Shown piece by piece: positions 3 through 48,755 of a stretch of DNA of 64,000 bases. Position 1 is the stretch's first letter, and each line of letters begins with the position of its first letter. Origin of the DNA: Adineta ricciae (Eukaryota > Rotifera > Eurotatoria > Adinetida > Adinetidae); assembly GCA_905250025.1 (NCBI GenBank), contig CAJNOJ010000180.1, forward strand, positions 154,556 through 218,555, given 5' to 3'. The notes under the pieces are model-generated. The model did no database searches. It worked only from the letters and a program-made list of their open reading frames with translations, and was not told the origin of the DNA. Both the position numbers and the translations under genes were made by a program.

Positions 3-3000
3 GTGAAAGAATTTACTTGGATTGAGTGTATCGATATGCTCAAATCAGATATATTTCTTCAAACCTTTTCAATCGAAGACAATAAACGAATGATTCAGTA
101 CTTCTATAGAAGATGTACCAAGAATACTGATGATCCAATCGAGAAAATTCCATTTCTAATGGATCAACATAATCGATTACAATCGATTAAATCGATTTAT
201 TTTCCGGCAGAGACAATTGGTGATAGTGGAACAATCGATTCTGACGATTTATTTCTACACAAATCCATCTTCAGTTGGCTGAATGAGAAAAATCAAAGAG
301 AAATCAAACAATGGTTGAAGAACATCGGCGTTGAAGAACGAACTGATCTAGCATACTTCCGCAAAACAATTATTCCAAACGCTTCATCGTACATTACACT
401 GAAAAATGCAATTAGTACTATAAAGATCCTATTTACATTATTTCGAAAGAACGCGATCACGAAAAAAGAACTTGAAGACTTGAAAAAGCTGAAACTATTA
501 ACAACCCGAGGAACATTAGTCGCAGCTGAACAATGTTTTTTTTCTGACCAATACGAACCACGATTACTGCTGGAAGATTACTTAGCTGAAAAGGAAGACA
601 AATTTTTGTCCTTCGACTATATCTCGAGTGCCAACTGCACTAATGAAAATTTAGCTGAATGGAGGCAATTCTTTGCTGCATTAGGAATTCAAGAGGAATT
701 ACGTCCGATTACCTTCGATCGAAAACTAACATCGTATGAAGCGGCTGGATATGGTTTCTTTGAGAAATATCTCTCAGCAACTTCACCAAATGGAAGACAT
801 ACTGTCGATGCTTTCTTAGGATTGACAACAATTTCATTTATGCAACATACAAAAAGTAAGAATACAAATCAAGATATAACTCAACTTTATTCTCATTCGA
901 CTTCTCCATTAGATAACTACGTGTTTGCAAATTTCTTCTGGCCATATGTAACTAAAAATATTCAAGCAGAAATATTAACAAAGAAGATTACCATCTATTG
1001 GGGACATTCGAACAAACCAGGTGCCATCGTCGGAACATTACAAGACAATGCTGATTACATCAGCTGGTTTGTTAACAATGTCGAGTGTATACCGACGACT
1101 GCGACAACATGTGAACTAGCCAGTAATGTTCTTGTTGATAGTAAAGAATTAACCGATTTATGTAGTAAGTACATGAAATTTACTTCGTTATCACTACCAA
1201 AAGAGAAAATACACTGGCAGAAGATTTTCAATTTCAAAAGCAAACTTTCAGTCATTGATTATTTCGATCTACTCGACAGCATTCGTTCTGACGAAAACAA
1301 TTTAAATGAAAATCTTGATCGTGTGCAAAACGTATATTCTCATATATTAAAAGAAATGTACTATTGGTCATCTGACGAACGTCAACAAGCGAAAAGACGA
1401 GCCAAATCATCTTATCTTCTCACCGAAAATATGCAATGGAAGTTAGCGAGTGACATATATCTTTATATGGAAGATAGTCGAGCAAACAATGGTTTGAATG
1501 ATGCTATACCTTGTTTACAACTTGATTCAAAGAATAGAAATAATCTGCATCTGAAAGAGTTCTTATATTTGTTCAATATTAAACAAATCAAAATGAATGA
1601 TTTGAAACTTGTCGATGCTAAATCTTCTCCTGCTGAACATTTTCGAAGAAAACTGATTGAGATTTCACCGTTCTTGAAAAAATGGCTTCAAGTTTCAGCT
1701 GTATCCGCTGATGCGATTTGCACAATTGACCGAAAAATTCAACAAGAATATGCGTTTATCGAATCAGATAGTTTACAATTGTTTTATCATCAAAATTTCG
1801 TTCGACAAACAAATGTTTATTTTGATAGCAAACATAAACAACTGTATGTTACACGGCCGTGGGATAGCGAAACGACCTTTATTGATCTTCCAAATAAATT
1901 ATGTCTATTATTAAATATACAAGATTTTGACAAAAATCTGCGTTTTTTGCTAAAAGGAACAATCGAAGAGATTCGGAAACATTTTACGTCCAATGATGTG
2001 GAAATACCGACCGAAAAAGATATTATTATCTTAGAATCATTACCCAAAACTGGTAACTCAATGCATGCGAATACTAGGAGGTTAGTTACTTTTGATTTTT
2101 TTTTCTATTTCTCAGATTCCGTCATCCAAACAAAGGTGCCATTGGCAGCTGAAACATCCAATTCGAACAAGCCTTCTCGGTCAGTGAAGAATAAGCAGAC
2201 AAAAAGTATTCAGTCCAAAGAAACACTATCTACTACAAATAGTTTAAAATCGACGAATCCAATACCTACAGTGAGCTATCCATTTCCTTTTCACGGTAAT
2301 GAAATATTAATGACAAAACGTTCGAGCGCACGTATCATTGTTTGTAATGATTTTTAGGCTTTATGCAAGTACCTGCTCAACTGCCACTTGAATATGCAGG
2401 ACCACCGACAGGGATGTGGAGAAAGCCAACAACATCTATTTTAGATCACATTCAATTAGTTGATATATCATCAGTAGCAAATTCAACTCCAGGATTATTT
2501 CATAGTATACCAAATATCACTGGAGAATGCGATGAACTTGATTTGTATACCGGACGTGTGGGAGAGGAAATGGTTTATCAATATTTATTGAACGAACATC
2601 GTGATCATTCGAGCTCAGTGAATGTCAAATGGTTGAATGAAATTGGAGAAAGTCATCTACCGTATGATATCGTCTTGCAGAAAAATGGCAAGACATCTTA
2701 TATCGAAGTAAAAACAACACGGACATACAACCGACATACATTTCCTTTGTCAATCAATCAAATTGAAACATTTTTGCTAAAAGGAACAATCGAAGAGATT
2801 CGGAAACATTTTACGTCCAATGATGTGGAAATACCGACCGAAAAAGATATTATTATCTTAGAATCATTACCCAAAACTGGTAACTCAATGCATGCGAATA
2901 CTAGGAGGTTAGTTACTTTTGATTTTTTTTTCTATTTCTCAGATTCCGTCATCCAAACAAAGGTGCCATTGGCAGCTGAAACATCCAATTCGAACAAGCC

Positions 3001-3750
3001 TTCTCGGTCAGTGAAGAATAAGCAGACAAAAAGTATTCAGTCCAAAGAAACACTATCTACTACAAATAGTTTAAAATCGACGAATCCAATACCTACAGTG
3101 AGCTATCCATTTCCTTTTCACGGTAATGAAATATTAATGACAAAACGTTCGAGCGCACGTATCATTGTTTGTAATGATTTTTAGGCTTTATGCAAGTACC
3201 TGCTCAACTGCCACTTGAATATGCAGGACCACCGACAGGGATGTGGAGAAAGCCAACAACATCTATTTTAGATCACATTCAATTAGTTGATATATCATCA
3301 GTAGCAAATTCAACTCCAGGATTATTTCATAGTATACCAAATATCACTGGAGAATGCGATGAACTTGATTTGTATACCGGACGTGTGGGAGAGGAAATGG
3401 TTTATCAATATTTATTGAACGAACATCGTGATCATTCGAGCTCAGTGAATGTCAAATGGTTGAATGAAATTGGAGAAAGTCATCTACCGTATGATATCGT
3501 CTTGCAGAAAAATGGCAAGACATCTTATATCGAAGTAAAAACAACACGGACATACAACCGACATACATTTCCTTTGTCAATCAATCAAATTGAAACATTT
3601 TTGAAACTGAGAGAGAACTATTTCATCTATCGAGTCTATATGGACGAGAAAAAGTTTGTTATATTGGATAACATTCGATGGCGTTTAATGCAAAAAGAAC
3701 ACCTGGCTTGTCTCTTACAAATTTTACCAAGTTTACCAAACTGTAACTGA
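3..3750 (+). CDS. NO VEIN-like protein, C-terminal part (5' end outside the window)
   Basis: Five exons read well: 3-2052, 2116-2295, 2358-2879, 2943-3122 and 3185-3750. The introns (63, 62, 63 and 62 nt) are all phase 1 and together give 1165 visible residues. The C-terminus (TGRVGEEMVYQYL, VKWLNEIGESHLPYDIV, YIEVKTTRT) matches the DUF3883 domain that ends plant NO VEIN proteins and related HSP90-type-ATPase/sacsin-like proteins. That domain has a nuclease-like fold (family knowledge). The ATPase part would lie upstream of base 1. The long middle region resembles the poorly defined body of these proteins. An in-frame duplication (see the repeat entry) makes the predicted protein carry the DUF3883 segment twice, and the first copy lacks its last strand. 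The gene ends 150 bp from the convergent Hint gene. Molecular function is not known; the family call is fairly secure. Confidence 0.72.
1944..3597 (+). repeat. Perfect 827-bp tandem direct duplication
   Basis: Bases 1944-2770 recur at 2771-3597 with no difference that I can see. The shared sequence continues through a TTTTTG present at both joints, so the exact breakpoint is ambiguous by about 6 bases. Each unit contains two introns (63 and 62 nt), so the mature message gains 702 nt, exactly 234 codons, and the frame is kept. Lack of divergence means either a very recent event or an assembly or sequencing artefact. Confidence 0.95.
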
Positions 3751-18007: not shown

Positions 18008-18949
18008 TTATTTGATATTTGTCGCGATAATAGTAACCATACCGTAAATGCCCAATGTTTCACGAACTTTTTCGACCTGAAAAAGAGATGTTCCACTAAC
18101 ACTATCTTTCAACATTCCAATTTTTTCTGGCGTAACTTTAGGAAAAAGAATTTGATACAGCCCATCTGCAGTTCGAATAATGAAATATTGTTTTGTTTGT
18201 CTCGTCAAATCATCACTATTCGATTGACGAACAAGATTTTGAAGTATATCTAATTTTTCTAATTCATTTATACCAACATATGCAGCAAGATAAATCACTT
18301 GACATTGACTCAGAATCGATCGAACCTCATTTGGTAATGGACTTTCACAGATATCTTGAGTGATAAAATGCATACGTTTGAAAAGATCCGCAGGTAAGAT
18401 TTGTTCGCTGATCAACGATGCTAGTTGATTCGCTTCTTCACACATATCAATATTATAAATATCGACCAACGGTCCATGATCATTGAGGATAATCAAGGAA
18501 GATGTTGGAATTGGACCTGAACCAACAAACGCAATTTTAGTAACTAACGAACTACCCTTTGCATTGTGATCCGTCGAATTCTTCGCTAGAGAAACACCAA
18601 GATTCTGTAACATGTTGATTTCACATTGAATCAATTCTTCATAACCTTTCCGATGTTTGAAATGTTCGGTAAAATTATGATTTCGATCAACAGCACAGAT
18701 CTTTGCTGTTCGAATTTCACCGTAGAGACCATACAGAGCGAACAAACGACGCAGATTTTCGCATGCAACGTTCAATTCCACGTCTGTATCTAACATCTCA
18801 TTCAATTTCGATAAACAGACATCTTTTGCAGAACATAAGTTTATAAGTTCGTCGAATAAATCAATCAGCTGAGGAGAAAATTCGGTAATATCAAGTTGGG
18901 CAAGCTCATGATTTAACTGAATAAGTCGATTACGCATCGAACCGTCCAT
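18008..18949 (-). CDS. Nicotianamine synthase-like protein, copy A
   Basis: Single exon, 313 residues, starting at the first ATG (MDGSMRNR). The order of motifs follows nicotianamine synthase (NAS): an N-terminal helical part with ENLRRLFALYGLYGEIRTAK, HFKHRKGYEELIQCEINML, then the SAM-binding Rossmann part KIAFVGSGPIPTSSLIILN (about 138-156), YNIDMCEEANQLA, RMHFITQDI, QVIYLAAYVGINELEKLDIL and YFIIRTADGLYQILFP. Length matches plant NAS (about 320). NAS condenses three S-adenosylmethionine molecules into nicotianamine, a chelator of Fe, Ni, Cu and Zn; it is known from plants, some fungi and archaea and is not a standard animal enzyme (family knowledge). Presence here between a P450 and caspase-like genes, apparently without introns, suggests horizontal acquisition. 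Activity is not proven. Confidence 0.82.
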   Translation of the reverse strand: MDGSMRNRLIQLNHELAQLDITEFSPQLIDLFDELINLCSAKDVCLSKLNEMLDTDVELNVACENLRRLFALYGLYGEIRTAKICAVDRNHNFTEHFKHRKGYEELIQCEINMLQNLGVSLAKNSTDHNAKGSSLVTKIAFVGSGPIPTSSLIILNDHGPLVDIYNIDMCEEANQLASLISEQILPADLFKRMHFITQDICESPLPNEVRSILSQCQVIYLAAYVGINELEKLDILQNLVRQSNSDDLTRQTKQYFIIRTADGLYQILFPKVTPEKIGMLKDSVSGTSLFQVEKVRETLGIYGMVTIIATNIK

Positions 18950-19383: not shown

Positions 19384-20447
19384 TCATTTTGCAGGCAGAG
19401 TGGAATATTTTCGCTGAATGGCATTTTGGCGTCTGATTTTTAACTTGTGAATTAGTGCTCGAATTTCACCAAGACGGCAACTAGCATCACGGTTATAAGA
19501 ACCACTTCCTTGTGGTTGTTTAATAGCAATATCTTCCAATTCATCGTTTAATTCTTCAATCCGTACGTTGCAATCTTTGATTTTTTGTTCTACACGAAAA
19601 CAAAACACAACAATTCGGTTCTATCTGATAAAGGAGTGTTTTAAACGTACCATCTGGCATTGTATAGAGACAAACTTGATCGTATTGTTGTAATCCATTC
19701 ATAAAGAATGGGCGTTGTTTACCTTTGCTTTCCTGACTAACGTTTTCAGCGATGTTTTGAAACACGTCAATGATAGGAACATCTTCTCGATCAATGTTGT
19801 TTAGTAGATGTTCAGCAAACAAATTTTCTTGATTTTTCTTTCGATTATCCGAAACAATCTTGCCAGCACCGCAAGCAAATTGAATGAAAACTGGATTGGA
19901 TGAAGTTATTGTCTTTAGACCTTTCGGTAGCCGATGAGCTATAAAAAGGAATGGAAATGTTCTTTGTATAATAAATTCATTTCGCTCAGTACATACAGTT
20001 TGATGGTGACTCGCAATTGTAAAAGTATTGTTTAACACAATCGAGAATAAAAATGTTCACGCCAGATTCATTTTTGTCGGTTAGTTTCCTCAATATACTT
20101 GCAGCATTTGCACCCATTTCGCTGGCAACAATATCCGATTCCATTCGATCGTCATCCGTAGGTATTAAATAGTTCGCACCGTCTACTTGACGGCATTGAC
20201 CACAGTAATAGAATAAAACTATACTACCATCTTCTATTGTCTTGGCAAATTCAACCACTCGTTTGAGCATCTCTTTTTTTAAATTCATATGCAAAGTAAC
20301 CCGAAAGTTAATTGCCTGTAAGACATCGCTCAGTTGTCTAGCATTGCTAGCCGCGTGCTCCACGCGATTTTCTTTTCGCTTATAATTACGATTGCCAATA
20401 ATGAGGGCTACTTTTGGACGAGATGAAAAATCACCAACGTTTGACAT
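19384..20447 (-). CDS. Caspase-like (peptidase C14 fold) protein with C-terminal coiled coil, copy A
   Basis: Three exons, 20447-19997, 19938-19651 and 19589-19384 (introns 58 and 61 nt), encode 314 residues. The N-terminal half shows the metacaspase/paracaspase p20 pattern: KVALIIGNRNY, then SIVLFYYCGQCRQVDGANYL with IPTDD, then NIFILDCVKQ. The expected catalytic His of the YxGHG box is Gln (about residue 84), while the Cys in LDC is kept (about 137). So this may be an inactive or altered protease, a pseudoenzyme. The middle segment (SSNPVFIQFACGAG, LFAEHLLNNI) corresponds to the p10-like part of caspase-14-type domains. The end (EQKIKDCNVRIEELNDELED) is a predicted coiled coil. Start: ATG at 20447, the first in frame. 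It is divergent from the caspase/PARP fusion 422 bp away, with which it is clearly paralogous. Confidence 0.75.
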
Positions 20448-20869
20448 TTTCAATTCGAATCTGAAAAATGAAACTCAATAACGGCAAACCAGAGTATGCA
20501 TTTGAACTCCTATTTTCACCGAAAAAAAAACTTCCAACTTACCAACAAAACCATCAAGTAGGATGTTATGATGTTCTGTTATTTGGAAAGAATAATGCAT
20601 TACTTTATATTTACACTGCACGTCCAAAAGAATTTGAGTGATGTTTGTCTCTCTGCCAGAAAGAAACTATTGGTAGTTGCTTGTTTGCGTTAAATCAACA
20701 ATGTGACTGGTAAGAATGATTTTAAAAAATCACATCTACCAAAAATTAAAATGCGTCACGTCTTCGACTGAGGCTCCCTATTTTCAGAGAACAAAGATGT
20801 TTACGACGTGAAAATGAGAATCAAAACTAATAAACACAGCATCTTTATAGTTTTAGATCAGAATAACAA
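20448..20869. promoter_or_regulatory. Shared divergent promoter region, copy A
   Basis: 422 bp separate two caspase-like genes transcribed away from each other; the same arrangement is kept in copy B. No unambiguous TATA box. Co-regulation is inferred from layout only. Confidence 0.4.
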
Positions 20870-22929
20870 ATGGCACGTTCGAATAGTAATGCATCTCAAC
20901 GCCGAAAGTTAGCTTTGATCATTGGCAACGGAAGATACAATTTATCGGAAAACCGATTAGATTATGCAAAACAGAATGCGGACGAGTTGAGTGCGCTACT
21001 CAAATCCGTCGGATTCAAAGTGACCCTTGTCCATGACATACAACGACATGAATTTGCGAACTGTTTTGTTGCTTTCTCTGCAGCGATTCGCGAAGATGAT
21101 TTAGTGTTGATCTATTTCTGTGGTCAGGCATGTCATGTCGATGGTACTAATTTTCTTATACCCACCGGGGATAATGATATTGAAACTAAAGATGATTTCG
21201 AAGACTCTGCTAATAAGCTAAAGAATATGATCACTCAAATAGCGGATTCGAAACAATCATATGCAACGATATTTATTTTCGATTGTTCGAAACCTTACTT
21301 AGTGAAAAGCACAAAAAAATCGAAGTGTAAGTAGAAGGTTATGAGGAAAACAGTAAGTAAACCTTGTCTATATCAATTTAGCGCTAGATCGATGTGCGGG
21401 ATTGAATAAAATCTCACCATCACCTCAAACATTCATCCAATTTGCTCGCTCAAGTGATGATCATGCGTCGACTAATTTGTATTTTGAACACTTACTGAAA
21501 AACATTGTGCAAGAAAACGTGGAGCTTGTCGATGCACTTCGACGAGTAGAAAAGGATGTTGCTCAAGAAAGTAATAAGAAACAACAGCCGTTATCTATGG
21601 ATAATTTAGACAAAAGTCGATCGATCTGCCTGAACCCTGTTGTTCTTGAAAGTAAATCAAAAAGAATCTACAAGAAGAGATTGTCAGATGATCCTTTTCC
21701 ATTTCATAGAATGGGATGAAGTCAAACCAAGTGAAATGGCTGAATTTAAGAAAAAACAGGCTGAACTGAAGGCATGTTACGATAATTATCCAACAATCGA
21801 CGAGCTGACAAAGAAAAACAAGTCAAGTATTGAAAAAGCCGAAGGATTGACAAAAGAAATTCTGTCGAAAACGCCGTCCGGAGATGCAACTAAAACAGAC
21901 ACCGTATGTCACGTCCTATACAAATTATTCGAACAGGAAAATCAAGAATGTCTATTCTTTGATTCCACTCAAGATATGAAACTTCACGATGCATCCAGTA
22001 ATCTAGCTGATTTTAGTACTCAAGATAAACCATTTGTGCTAAAATTGAATAATGTTCATGGCCTGGGTACCAAAACTTACGCTGACGATGGACAGCAAGG
22101 ATTGAATGTTGTTCAAACATTAGAACGTGCACGAGAACAAAACCAGTCGCATCCAGTTCTTGATGACATTGTTGATCGATTGGCGAAAGCACATGATGTT
22201 AATAAAAAGCAGATCAAGATCAAGAACTTCTTCTATGGGTCATGCGGTGTTGTCTACACCGTGGATGATCTACCAAAGAACATAGTTAAGTCATTGTCGA
22301 CTGTTACCGACAGATTACGAGAACGATTCGAACAATTCCAATCGGCAAAGATTCATCCATTGTTATTTCGACCATCATTCGATATATCGCAGTTTGATGA
22401 ACGTGGAAATAAAACATTTACAGAACAAGGGAAATTAGAAGTTGGACCACCTGGACGTAAGATGACATACTATCAACCAGTTGGATGGACACGATATGGA
22501 TTGAAAGTATTAGGTAGATATGAAAATGATACATGGTTAGATCCGTTTGGACATGAAAAAAATTGGTACAAAGCTTATCATGGAACCGGTCGTGCTGAAG
22601 CACAAGACTTCGGAAAAGCTGACGGTGATATTGATAAACAATACGCAGCGATTGACGCAGCTGCGAGTATTCACAAAAATGGATTCCGTGAAGCAAGAGT
22701 TCATGTTTATGGAGCAGGTGTTTATTGTTCTCCAGATCCTACTTTCCCCGTCAAGAATTATGTTGGTACAGTTGAGTTAAAAACTGAGCAAGGACCTAAA
22801 AAGTTTATGTGCATGCTTCAAGTAGCAGTGAATCCAGACGGCGTTACGTTTACCACAGCACCACAAATATGGGTTGTTCCAAAGCCTAAAGACATCCGAA
22901 CATACGGAATACTTATTAAAGAAGTTTAG
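20870..22929 (+). CDS. Caspase-like / PARP(ART)-like fusion protein, copy A
   Basis: Exons 20870-21326, 21382-21651 and 21710-22929 (introns 55 and 58 nt) encode 648 residues. Residues 12-240 are a caspase-like domain: KLALIIGNGRYNL, DLVLIYFCGQACHVDGTNFL with IPTGD, and ATIFIFDCSKPYL. The His position is Gln at 86; Cys 139 is kept. After a Lys/Glu-rich linker (AEFKKKQAELKACYDNYP) the C-terminal part from about 490 reads GRKMTYYQPVGWTRYGLKVL, WYKAYHGTG (about 528-536), IHKNGF, YGAGVYCSPDP, MCMLQVAVNP and DIRTYGILIK. This has the H-Y layout of PARP-like ADP-ribosyltransferase folds seen in many protist, fungal and rotifer proteins. Role could be proteolysis-coupled signalling or a scaffold; neither activity is shown. 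Domain order and splice frames are clear. Confidence 0.75.
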
Positions 22930-43037: not shown

Positions 43038-43038
43038 N
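43038..43038. other. Single N: assembly gap or join
   Basis: One ambiguous base (TATATCNGAAACG) exactly where homology to copy A begins, inside an exon. Confidence 0.9.
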
Positions 43039-43706: not shown

Positions 43707-44648
43707 TTATTTGATATTTGTCGCAATAATAGTAACCATACCGTAAATGCCCAATGTTTCACGAACTTTTTCAACCTGAAAAAGTGATGTTCCGCTAACA
43801 CTATCTTTCAACATTCCAATTTTGTCTGGCGTAACTTTAGGAAAAAGAATTTGATACAGCCCATCGGCAGTTCGAATAATGAAATAGTGTTTTGTTTGAC
43901 TGGTCAAATCATCACTATTCAATTGACGAACAAGATTTTGAAGTATATCTAATTTTTCTAATTCATTTATACCAACATATGCAGCAAGATAAATTACTTG
44001 ACATTGACTCAGAATCGATCGAACCTGATTTGGTAATGGATTTTCACAGATATCTTGAGTGATAAAATGCATACGTTTGAAAAGATCCGCAGGTAAGATT
44101 TGTTCGCTGATCAACGATGCGAGTTGATTCGCTTCTTCACACATATCTATGTTATAAATATCGACCAACGGTCCATGATCATTGAGGATAATCAGAGAAG
44201 ATGTTGGAATAGGACCTGAACCAACAAACGCAATTTTAGTAACTAACGAATCGCCCTTTTCATTGTGATCCGTCGAATTCTTCGCTAGATAAACACCAAG
44301 TTCCTGTAACGTGTTGATTTCACATTGAATCAGTTCTTCATAACCTTTCCGATGTTTGAAATGTTCGGTAAAATTATGATTTCGATCAACAGCACAGATC
44401 TTTGCTGTTCGAATTTCACCGTAGAGACCATACAAAGCAAATAAACGACGCAGATTTTCGCATGCGACGTTCAATTCCATATCTGTATCTAACATTTCAT
44501 TCAATGTCGAAACACAGACATCTTTTGCAGAACATAAGTTTATAAGTTCGTCGAATAAATCAATCAGCTGAGGAGAAAATTCGGTAATATCAAGTTGGGT
44601 AAGTTCATGATTTAACTGAATAAGTCGATTACGCATCGAACCGTCCAT
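43707..44648 (-). CDS. Nicotianamine synthase-like protein, copy B
   Basis: 313 residues, single exon, start at MDGSMRNR as in copy A. All motifs (KIAFVGSGPIPTSSLIILN, YNIDMCEEANQLA, VIYLAAYVGINELEKLDIL) are unchanged; differences are scattered conservative changes such as CLSKLNEM to CVSTLNEM and KGSSL to KGDSL. Full length and frame are kept, which argues that both copies are under selection or are alleles. Confidence 0.82.
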   Translation of the reverse strand: MDGSMRNRLIQLNHELTQLDITEFSPQLIDLFDELINLCSAKDVCVSTLNEMLDTDMELNVACENLRRLFALYGLYGEIRTAKICAVDRNHNFTEHFKHRKGYEELIQCEINTLQELGVYLAKNSTDHNEKGDSLVTKIAFVGSGPIPTSSLIILNDHGPLVDIYNIDMCEEANQLASLISEQILPADLFKRMHFITQDICENPLPNQVRSILSQCQVIYLAAYVGINELEKLDILQNLVRQLNSDDLTSQTKHYFIIRTADGLYQILFPKVTPDKIGMLKDSVSGTSLFQVEKVRETLGIYGMVTIIATNIK

Positions 44649-45237
44649 TTTACACCGAGAGAGAAAATGATTATAATGCACAACGTCTTTTTTATATACA
44701 CATGTAAAGATCTCTTTGTCATTCTGTATGATAACAACATTTTTTATTTGTCATCATACTTTTTTCTTTCTTTTTCTGTTGATCTTATTATACAACAAAA
44801 TTGTCCTCTGCTAGAAAACAAAAACCTATTCAACACTATACCAGATAATCATCGATTTAGATACTAAACAGTGTGTAGAAGAGAAAAAAAGGGATAGAAT
44901 CGAAAAGAGACCAATTATCCTTCTTATTTTATTGGTTCATGCAATGTGCATGGTCCAGATAATGATGAACTTTACTGTTTGGTTGATTGTCGTTCTCGAA
45001 TTAAAGTTAAAACGAAGAATAATATCCTAATACATGCTTTGATCTTTTAGGGAATGATCAGTCATGAGTTAGATTTGATCGATATGAACATATTTATACG
45101 AGCCGAGGAAAAATATCATCATATATTACACCGAACGAGTTTTCCGCTTTTTCATCAGCAAGACTGAATTTATTTAAGACAATATTAAAAGTTTAGCTTC
45201 TTCCCTCTCTCGGTCGTATAGTTTGCTAGGTAAAAAG
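44649..45237. other. Intergenic, copy B
   Basis: As 18950-19383, plus about 170 bp (44812-44985) not present in copy A. No gene. Confidence 0.45.
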
Positions 45238-46301
45238 TCATTTTGCAGGCAGTGTGGAATATTTTCGGTAAATGGCATTTTGGCGTCTGATTTTTAACTT
45301 GTGAATTAGTGCTCGAATTTCACCAAGACGGCAACTAGCAGCAAGGCTGTAAGAACCACTTCCTTGCGGTTGTTTACTAGCAATATCTTCCGATTCATCG
45401 TTTAATTCTTCAATCCGGACGTTGCAATCGTTGATTTTTTCTTCTACACGAGAACAAAACACAACAATTTGGATCTATCCGATAAAGGAATATTTTAAAC
45501 GTACCATCTGACATTGTATAGAGACAAACTTGATCGTATTGATGTAATCCATTCATAGAGAATGGTTGTTGTTTACCTCTGCTTTCCTGAGTAACGTTTT
45601 CAGTTATTTCTTGAAACATGTCAATGATAGGAACATCTTCTCGATCAATGTTTTTTAGTAGATGTTCAGCAAACAAATTATCTTGATTTTTCTTTCGATT
45701 ATTCGAAACAATCTTGCCAGCACCGCAAGCAAATTGAATGAAAACTGGATTGGATGAAGTTATTGTCTTTAGACCTTTCGGTAGCCGATCAGCTATAAAA
45801 AAGAATGAAAACGTTCTTTGTATAATTAATTCATTTCCCTCAGTACATACAGTTTGATGTTGACTGGCGATTGTAAAAATATTGTTTAACACAATCGAGA
45901 ATAAAAATGTTCACGCCAGATTCATTTTTCTCGGTTAGTCTCCTCAATATGCTTGCAGCATTTGCTCCCATTTCGCTGGCAACGATATCCGATTCGATTC
46001 GACCGTCATCCGTAGGTATCAAATAGTTCTTACCGTCTACCTGACGGCATTGACCACAGTAATAGAATAAAACTATACTACCATCTTCTATTGTCTTGAT
46101 AAATTCAACAACTTGTTTGAGCATCTCTTTTTGTAAATCCACATGCAAAGTAACCCGAAAGTTAATTGTCTGTAAGACATCTCTCAGTTGTCTAGCATTG
46201 CTAGCCGCATGCTTCACACGATTCTCTTTTCGTTTATAGTTACGATTGCCAATAATGAGAGCTACTTTTGGACGAGATGAAAAATCACTAGCTTTTGACA
46301 T
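45238..46301 (-). CDS. Caspase-like protein with coiled coil, copy B
   Basis: Exons 46301-45851, 45792-45505 and 45443-45238, same phases as copy A, 314 residues. The active-site region again reads YYCGQCRQVDG (Gln in the His place) and FILDCVKQ (Cys kept). The shared Gln means the His was lost before the copies separated. The coiled-coil end reads EEKINDCNVRIEELNDESED. Divergent from the copy-B fusion gene. Confidence 0.75.
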
Positions 46302-46695: not shown

Positions 46696-48755
46696 ATGGC
46701 ACGTTCGAATAACAATGCATCTCAACGCCGAAAGTTAGCTTTGATCATTGGCAACAGCAGATACCATTTGTCGGAAAATCGATTAGATTATGCAAAACAG
46801 AATGCGGACGAGCTGAGTGCGCTACTCAAATCCGTCGGAGTCAAAGTGACCCTTGCACATGACTTGCAGCAAACTGATTTGAGGAATTGTGTCATTGATT
46901 TCTCTAAAGTAATTCGCGAAGATGATTTAGTGTTGATCTATTTCTGTGGTCATGCATGTCATTTCGATGGTGTTAATTTTCTTATACCCATCGGGGATAA
47001 TAAGATTGAAACTAAACATGATTTCGAAGACTTTGCTAATAATTTAATGAATACAATCAATCTAGTTCTGGATTCAAAACAATCATATGCAACGATATTT
47101 ATTTTCGATTATTCGAAACCTTATTTAACGAAAAGTACAAAAAAATCGAAGTGTAAGTACAAGGTTAGGAGGAAAACTGTAATTAAACCTTGTCTATATT
47201 AATTTAGCGCTAGATCAATGTGAAGGATTGAATAAAATCTCGCCACCACCCCAAACACTCATCCAATTTGCTCGCTCAAGTGATGATCATGCGTCGACTA
47301 ATTTGTATTTTAAACACTTACTGAAAAACATTGCGCAAGAAAATGTGGAGCTTGTCGATGCACTTCGACGAGTAGAAAAGGATGTTGCTCAAGAAAGTAA
47401 TAAGAAACAACAACCATTATCTATGGATAATTTAGACAAAAGTCGATCGATCTGCCTAAATCCTGTTGTTCTTGAAAGTAAATCACAATGAATCTACAAA
47501 CGGAGATTTTCAGATATTCTTTTTCCATTTCATAGAATGGGACGAAGTCAAACCAAGTGAAAAGGCTGAACTTATGAAAAAACAGAATGAGCTGAGGGCA
47601 TGTTACGATAATTATCCAACAATCGACGATCTGACAAAGAAAAACAAGCCAAGTATTGAAAAAGCCGAAAGATTGACAAAAGACATTCTCTCAGAAACAC
47701 CGTCGGGAGATGCAACTAAAAGAGACACCGTATGCCACGTCCTATACAAATTATTCGAACAAGAAAATCAAGAATGTCTATTCTTTGATTCCACTCGAGA
47801 TATGAAACTTCATGATGCATCCAGTAATCTAGCTGATTTTAGTACTCAAGATAAACCATTTGTGCTGAAATTAAATAATGTTCATGGTCTGGGCACTAAA
47901 ACTTATGCTGATGATGGACAACAAGGATTGAATGTTGTTCATACATTAGAACGTGCACGAGAGCAAAACCAGTCGCATCCAGTCCTTGATGACATTGTTG
48001 ATCGATTGGCGAAAGCACATAATGTTAATAAGAAGCAGATCAAGATCAAGACTTTCTTTCTTGGATCGTGTGGTGTTGTCTACACCGTGGATGATCTACC
48101 AAAGAACATAGTTAAGTCATTGTCGACCGTTCCCGATAGATTGCAAGAACAATTCGAACAATTCCAATCGGCAAAAATTCATCCTTTGTTATTTCGGCCA
48201 TCATTTGATATATCGCAGTTTGATGAACGTGGAAATAAAACATTTACAGATCAAGGGCAATTCGAAGTTGGACCAACTGGACGCAAGATGACATACTATC
48301 AACCAGTTGGATGGGCACGATATGGATTACAAGTATTAGGTAGATATGAAAATGATACATGGTTACATCCGTTTGGACACGACGAAAATTGGTACAAAGC
48401 TTATCATGGAACTGGTCGTGCTATAGCACAAGATTTCGGAAAAGCTGACGGTGATATTGATAAACAATACGCACCCATTGACGCAGCTGCGAGTATTCAC
48501 AAAAATGGATTCCGTGAAGCAAGAGTAAATGTTTATGGAGCAGGTGTTTATTGTTCTCCAGATCCTACTTTCCCCGTCAAGGAGTATGTTGGTACAGTTC
48601 AGTTACAAACTCAGCAAGGACCTAAAAAGTTTATGTGCATGCTTCAAGTAGCAGTGAATCCAGACGGCGTTAGGTTCACCACGGCGCCAAAAATATGGGT
48701 TGTTCCGAATCCTAAAGACATCCGAACATACGGAATACTTATTAAAGAAGTTTAG
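46696..48755 (+). CDS. Caspase-like / PARP(ART)-like fusion protein, copy B
   Basis: Exons 46696-47152, 47208-47477 and 47536-48755, 648 residues, same splice phases as copy A. In the caspase-like part the His is present (YFCGHACHFDG, residue 86) but the Cys position is Tyr (IFIFDYSKPYL, residue 139), the reverse of copy A. The PARP-like part keeps WYKAYHGTG, YGAGVYCSPDP, FMCMLQVAVNP and DIRTYGILIK. The last exon is more conserved between copies than the caspase part, suggesting that the C-terminal domain is the functional core. Confidence 0.75.

Follow-up and report, generated by a model that had tools for sequence, protein, structure and literature searches.

Does the joining of a caspase-like domain to a putative ADP-ribosyltransferase (ART) domain in one rotifer gene represent a real protein and, if so, does that protein act as a protease or in some other way? 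The question arose from a 64,000-nucleotide stretch of Adineta ricciae DNA (contig CAJNOJ010000180.1, positions 154,556 to 218,555; hereafter the window), which is contained in contig C180 of a 130-Mb genome of 1033 contigs. An earlier note on this DNA had described a 648-residue, three-exon product linking a peptidase C14-type domain, taken as a death-protease fold, to an ART-like C-terminus in an unfamiliar domain order. The exon model was found exactly in the sequence, and a second copy (copy B) in the window has an equal exon plan:

20870..21326, + strand: exon 1, p20 half of the caspase-like domain; the His column holds Gln86 and the Cys column Ser140 (D138-C139-S140)
21382..21651, + strand: exon 2, p10 half of the caspase-like domain
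21710..22929, + strand: exon 3, middle domain (aa ~244-462) followed by the PARP-like ART domain (aa 463-648; 22369-22926); H533 of HGT lies at 22579 and Y581 of GVY at 22723 (coordinates derived from the gene model)
46696..48755, + strand: second copy (B) of the fusion gene, with its exons at 46696-47152, 47208-47477 and 47536-48755; His86 is kept and the Cys column is Ser

In window copy A, the three-exon model gave an ORF open across 648 aa. The predicted splice joins enclose an intron 1 of 55 nt (GTAAGT..TTTAG) and an intron 2 of 58 nt (GTAAAT..CATAG). Copy B was 92% identical to copy A, with equal intron lengths and places and no frameshift. Both copies lie in collinear blocks of about 21 kb each (17341-38654 and 43039-64000), arranged head-to-tail at 88-95.5% identity, and a single N is found at window positions 43038 and 60766. 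Near-copies on one contig were also seen at C561, C453 and C290, and perhaps at C422 (from coordinates only). The collinear copies look like two haplotypes joined through scaffolding, and copy B is probably the other haplotype of the fusion gene; given the single Ns and the same-contig near-copies elsewhere, a biological tandem duplication was judged less likely. Away from these blocks, positions 1944-3603 hold an exact 833-bp tandem repeat (1944-2776 and 2771-3603).

A comparison of the two copies over 648 codons gave a dS of 0.171, a dN of 0.061 and an omega of 0.36 (Fisher p = 3.9e-9), which argues that the fusion gene is more than a chance frame. Constraint was clearest in p10 and the middle domain (aa 153-462; omega 0.18, p = 3e-11). 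Neutrality was not rejected for p20 between the copies (omega 0.72, p = 0.23), and for the ART domain constraint fell short of p 0.05 (omega 0.48, p = 0.057). The fusion protein is conserved as a whole. Amino acid differences appear clustered at about aa 48-90 of p20 (21011-21139 versus 46837-46965; alignment by eye), for which gene conversion or local selection is a possible cause.

The duplicated region also carries a nicotianamine synthase-like gene (18008-18949, - strand; copy at 43707-44750), the first copy of which matched PF03059 at 2.4e-27. Nicotianamine synthase is a plant/fungal-type gene, and horizontal transfer is the likely source of this candidate homolog in the rotifer.

The N-terminal part of the protein was analyzed against Pfam and solved structures. 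Peptidase_C14 was the sole Pfam match above cut-off in the window protein (aa 12-226; E value, 1.4e-17; 64.6 bits against a curated cut-off of 21.4). An eight-row family profile aligned both p20 and p10 with MALT1 (E value, 1e-17) and matched caspase-1 at 4.8e-6, and the window domain alone matched MALT1 at 2.8e-5. MALT1 is thus the nearest solved relative, and the D-x-C-R of the family falls on the D-M-C-R of MALT1 in the profile alignment. These matches bear out the peptidase C14-type assignment, but the notion of a death protease fails at the active site. In the MALT1 register, the His-Cys dyad is broken in both copies, as Gln/Ser in copy A and His/Ser in copy B. Judged by these residues, the window gene is a predicted pseudo-protease with an ART tail. 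Among 20 caspase-like domains aligned from 28 loci, both dyad residues were kept in 10 and not kept in the other 10. His and Cys are intact in the fused paralogs C561a, C561b, C99 and C303, so the loss in the window gene looks secondary; both residues are also gone in C57 and in its near copy C88.

The C-terminal part was more difficult to assign. Pfam PARP (PF00644) gave no match to the window protein at an E value of 1 and none to its ART domain alone; in Pfam as a whole, the HGT...GVYCSP C-terminus had no PARP or ART match, just unrelated ones below threshold. A search of the same genome with exon 3 found 23 places, 15 of which were ART frames at 25-38% identity. Sixteen ART domains were aligned, comprising five of the fused type and 11 of the 15 other frames, and five of the 16 matched Pfam PARP at E values of up to 1, the best at 1e-6. 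Two matches on contig C197 exceeded the PARP cut-off of 26.7 bits (27.6 and 27.1), with the whole ORF of one scoring 25.4. When compared by hhalign with eight PARPs of the same genome, the 16-row profile reached a probability of 94.9% with a score of 54.8 (maximum of 17.9 in 50 column shuffles). The five fused-type rows alone matched the PARPs weakly (probability 36%, score 31.2; shuffle maximum 24.5) and matched the other eleven ARTs at a probability of 99.7%. In a PDB profile search, PARP15 was found at a weak E value of 0.28, with non-ART chains from 0.47. AlphaFold2 models from two-sequence input had a pLDDT of 32.4 for exon 3 of the two window copies and 29.0 for the ART domain alone. Therefore, the ART-like C-terminus proposed in the earlier note is upheld by the comparison of its family with PARPs, but not by a Pfam match of its own or by a confident model. 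At the family level, the evidence supports a divergent PARP-type ART that is recognizable only via relatives in the same genome. A single-protein scan with one ART of this genome confirmed no viral relatives.

Of the 16 rows, 15 keep the HGT His and every one keeps the Tyr; all five fused-type rows have both. The position of the PARP Glu, read by eye and outside the hhalign match, holds Gln in copy A, Lys in copy B, and Asn, Asn and Asp in the rest of the fused set; in the relatives L012 and L022 it is Glu or Asp (by eye). With Gln or Lys at this position, the window ART may be inactive. PARPs without this Glu can act as mono-transferases. Ubiquitin-like domains share an ORF with members of this ART family in L012 (PF00240, 2.3e-13) and, by eye, in L022. 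Counted per exon, the genome has at least 125 PARP and at least 150 ARTC-type matches, and its predicted ADP-ribosylation repertoire is very large.

The middle domain had no Pfam match above cut-off and no NCBIfam match; matches to FAE1 and Cluap1 were below their cut-offs and were treated as chance. Compared with the corresponding region of other ART proteins, its profile scored 13.5 (60 shuffles reached up to 18.9); compared with the middle of C303/C88 it scored 19.4 (50 shuffles reached up to 20.2). A TRADD-N assignment was not supported: PF20694 matched three places in the genome, none of them at the window gene, and the resemblance consists of the GS turn alone in a low-confidence model.

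To place the window gene among its relatives, genome searches for caspase-like domains were merged into 71 loci, fragments included. Eight of these carry the ART tail or, in C57, its middle domain. In seven, a PARP-like ART match follows on the same strand at a distance of no more than 2 kb (two on C180, two on C561, and one each on C99, C303 and C88), with one C561 copy interrupted within exon 3, where there is an N; at the eighth, C57, the contig runs out after the middle domain has begun. With near-identical pairs counted as one, the eight loci represent about five genes. The frames of C303, C88 and C57 are joinable at GT-AG borders read by eye. Two further exon-3 copies were found: the contig of C611, a copy of the window subtype, is without any caspase-like match, and C109 is a remnant with six stops in the match. 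For the domain order that the earlier note could not place, a narrow search of the open literature found no paper; within this genome, the order is present at several further loci.

Other candidate tails were found behind caspase-like domains. An NHL propeller frame follows downstream at 15 or more loci (ten by coordinates and five by frame reading), and Pfam identified NHL in all five of the fifteen propellers that were submitted. In C99, the p10 half and an NHL propeller lie within a single ORF, so that join requires no splice. On contig C238, locus L029 (14942-15646 and downstream) encodes a caspase-like domain with an intact dyad that can be joined to an NAD:arginine ART (PF01129; 2.9e-6; 27.2 bits against 22.3) by removal of a 55-nt intron. 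With its splice predicted, L029 would be a second kind of caspase-ART join, of the ARTC type.

A caspase-like gene stands head-to-head with the fusion gene in both copies:

19384..20447, - strand: partner gene, 314 aa; exons 20447-19997, 19938-19651 and 19589-19384; splice borders by eye
45238..46301, - strand: partner copy B, 314 aa; outer coordinates from the start codon and the equal CDS and intron lengths
20448..20869, no strand: 422 bp of intergenic DNA separating the divergent start codons; perhaps a promoter for both genes (inferred)

The partner has a three-exon plan like that of the fusion gene and encodes a caspase-like domain with Gln/Val at the dyad in both copies, followed by a helical module. 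This module is related to frames that immediately precede six ART exons at other places (probability 93%, score 37.8; maximum of 16.4 in 100 shuffles), a match for which coiled-coil bias is a possible cause. Between the copies, constraint on the partner gene fell short of p 0.05 (omega 0.67, p = 0.21). An opposite-strand, head-to-head caspase-like gene was present at all five fused loci of the window subtype, with 284-438 bp between match edges, and was not found at the C303 and C88 fusions. The frame after the partner caspase domain is NHL at C561a and C99; at C561b the contig end is reached first. The dyads of the pairs vary: in C561 the ART side is intact and the NHL side lacks the Cys, in C99 both sides are intact, and at the window both are dead. 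The window partner being dead as well, there is locally no pair of an active and an inactive member. Head-to-head caspase pairs without an ART match were found four times (C74, C129 and two on C422; 860-907 bp), and in C74 and C129 one member is intact and the other has His changed to Leu.

A tree of the 20 caspase-like domains had good support on 4 of its 17 inner branches. The tree required three changes for the fused genes and three for the partners, and neither formed a single group in any of 200 bootstrap trees; the well-supported branches are compatible with such grouping. The caspase part thus does not demonstrate that the fused subtype arose once.

What can be read from the DNA is the set of domains, the loss of the dyad, a head-to-head pairing that recurs and the varied tails on a constant caspase-like domain. 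Our preferred explanation, which we hold tentatively and at a little below an even chance, is that the pseudo-protease serves as a constant docking module for pairing with caspase-like proteins and that the PARP-type ART tail is the effector. The paracaspase-like p20-p10 fold would dock other caspase-like proteins, above all the one encoded by the divergent neighbor, in a pairing that resembles cFLIP with caspase-8; dimerization and co-expression are presumed here. Docking, or a sensor tail such as the NHL propeller on partners at other loci, would bring the ART into position, and the ART tail might then transfer single ADP-ribose units, the mono-ADP-ribosylation as well as its trigger and targets being conjectural. 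A docking module fits better than a protease because the fold is kept without the protease site, p10 is constrained, the divergent pairing recurs and the tails vary. By analogy with cFLIP and with bacterial constant-caspase systems, a docking logic with ADP-ribosylation as output is what we propose, and a stress or immune switch in the rotifer, as the earlier note had it, is plausible.

Under a different reading, an ancestral or paralogous paracaspase would release the ART through cleavage of its own chain or of its partner after a basic residue, the window locus having been recently disarmed. The intact His and Cys of C561a, C561b, C99 and C303, the window-pair p20 that is indistinguishable from neutral and the MALT1-like relationship are all consistent with this, but C57 and C88, which form a caspase-ART pair that is more distant, are without both dyad residues. 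The caspase-ART join appears to outlast catalysis more than once, and we regard release by proteolysis as unlikely. It is also conceivable, at a somewhat lower probability, that both domains are non-catalytic and serve as a scaffold or decoy, possibly binding NAD+. The Cys is gone from the caspase-like part, the third ART residue is Gln, Lys, Asn, Asn or Asp (by eye) in the five fused-type rows, and the window protein combines the absence of its own Pfam ART match with an ART constraint of p 0.057; however, the NAD-site His and Tyr are retained in all five rows, and active mono-transferases are known among PARPs lacking the Glu.

That two adjacent genes were read as one, or that the gene is decaying, is highly improbable. 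The assembly has single-N joins, the exon joins at the window are predictions, and C109 and C611 are pieces that have decayed or stand apart. Nevertheless, both copies share the exon plan and the short GT-AG introns; at C561, C99, C303 and C88 the caspase and ART frames likewise follow each other in this order on one strand, with in-frame splice borders (by eye) at C303 and C88; and the 648 codons are without stop or frameshift at an omega of 0.36. The docking module with an ART effector might further be one form of a wider bdelloid system, a possibility that we put below the docking reading itself. Its constant element would be an often dead paracaspase-like module; its tails would be NHL sensors, PARP/ARTC effectors and a helical adaptor; and divergent pairs would be matching halves.

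According to the available portion of a previous study, bdelloids have a specific and highly divergent Peptidase_C14 expansion (A. vaga, 101 proteins; A. ricciae, 69), few genes of which changed on pathogen exposure, mostly downwards, leaving scores of caspase-like genes without an assigned role (PMC11258130). The 69 A. ricciae proteins of that study compare with our 71 merged loci, which include fragments. Its available text makes no mention of fusions, dead dyads or pairing, and the terms 'PARP' and 'ADP-ribosyl' are absent from its main text. Searches of the open-access literature for a caspase-ART fusion, Peptidase C14 with PARP, or a rotifer NHL-caspase found no paper. As far as this search reaches, the C14 expansion is already known, and the caspase-ART fusion and the head-to-head pairing are apparently undescribed. 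In the accessible part of another report, apoptosis after radiation or desiccation was argued to be unlikely in A. vaga, and 17 PARP genes were over-expressed after radiation and nine after rehydration (PMC10809525). If true, a dead caspase fold wired to ADP-ribosylation would partly explain the bdelloid paradox of many caspase-like genes where apoptosis is unlikely; the caspase fold would be reused for assembly, with NAD-based modification as the output. Because the pairs are head-to-head, co-expression offers a direct test.

The window protein shares with the MALT1 paracaspase the p20-p10 caspase fold (by sequence) and the D-x-C-R motif column of the Cys, but has no Ig or death domain in Pfam, has Ser in place of the Cys and has an added ART tail. 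Its ART domain has the HGT His and GxY Tyr of PARP-type ARTs (PF00644) and a profile match via relatives, but alone it is below detection, and its third position is not Glu (by eye). In vertebrates, the dead cFLIP adjoins caspase-8 and pairs with it, as stated in the available text of PMC11121540. Compared with cFLIP-L/caspase-8 as given there, the window likewise encodes a dead caspase fold beside a caspase-like gene, with heterodimer logic proposed here; it differs in that no death-effector domain was found in the window protein, the partner is also dead and an ART is fused. The wider bdelloid system described above would be an animal counterpart, with ADP-ribosylation as output, of bacterial two-gene conflict systems in which, in the part of PMC7159879 available, a constant caspase occurs with up to 50 variable C-terminal domains, and about 70% of the caspase domains that occupy a related effector position are described as inactive. 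The rotifer genes differ from that description in being animal genes with introns and in having no membrane-protein partner found, and they resemble it in architecture, with a constant N-terminal caspase-superfamily domain on which the C-terminal domains are exchanged.
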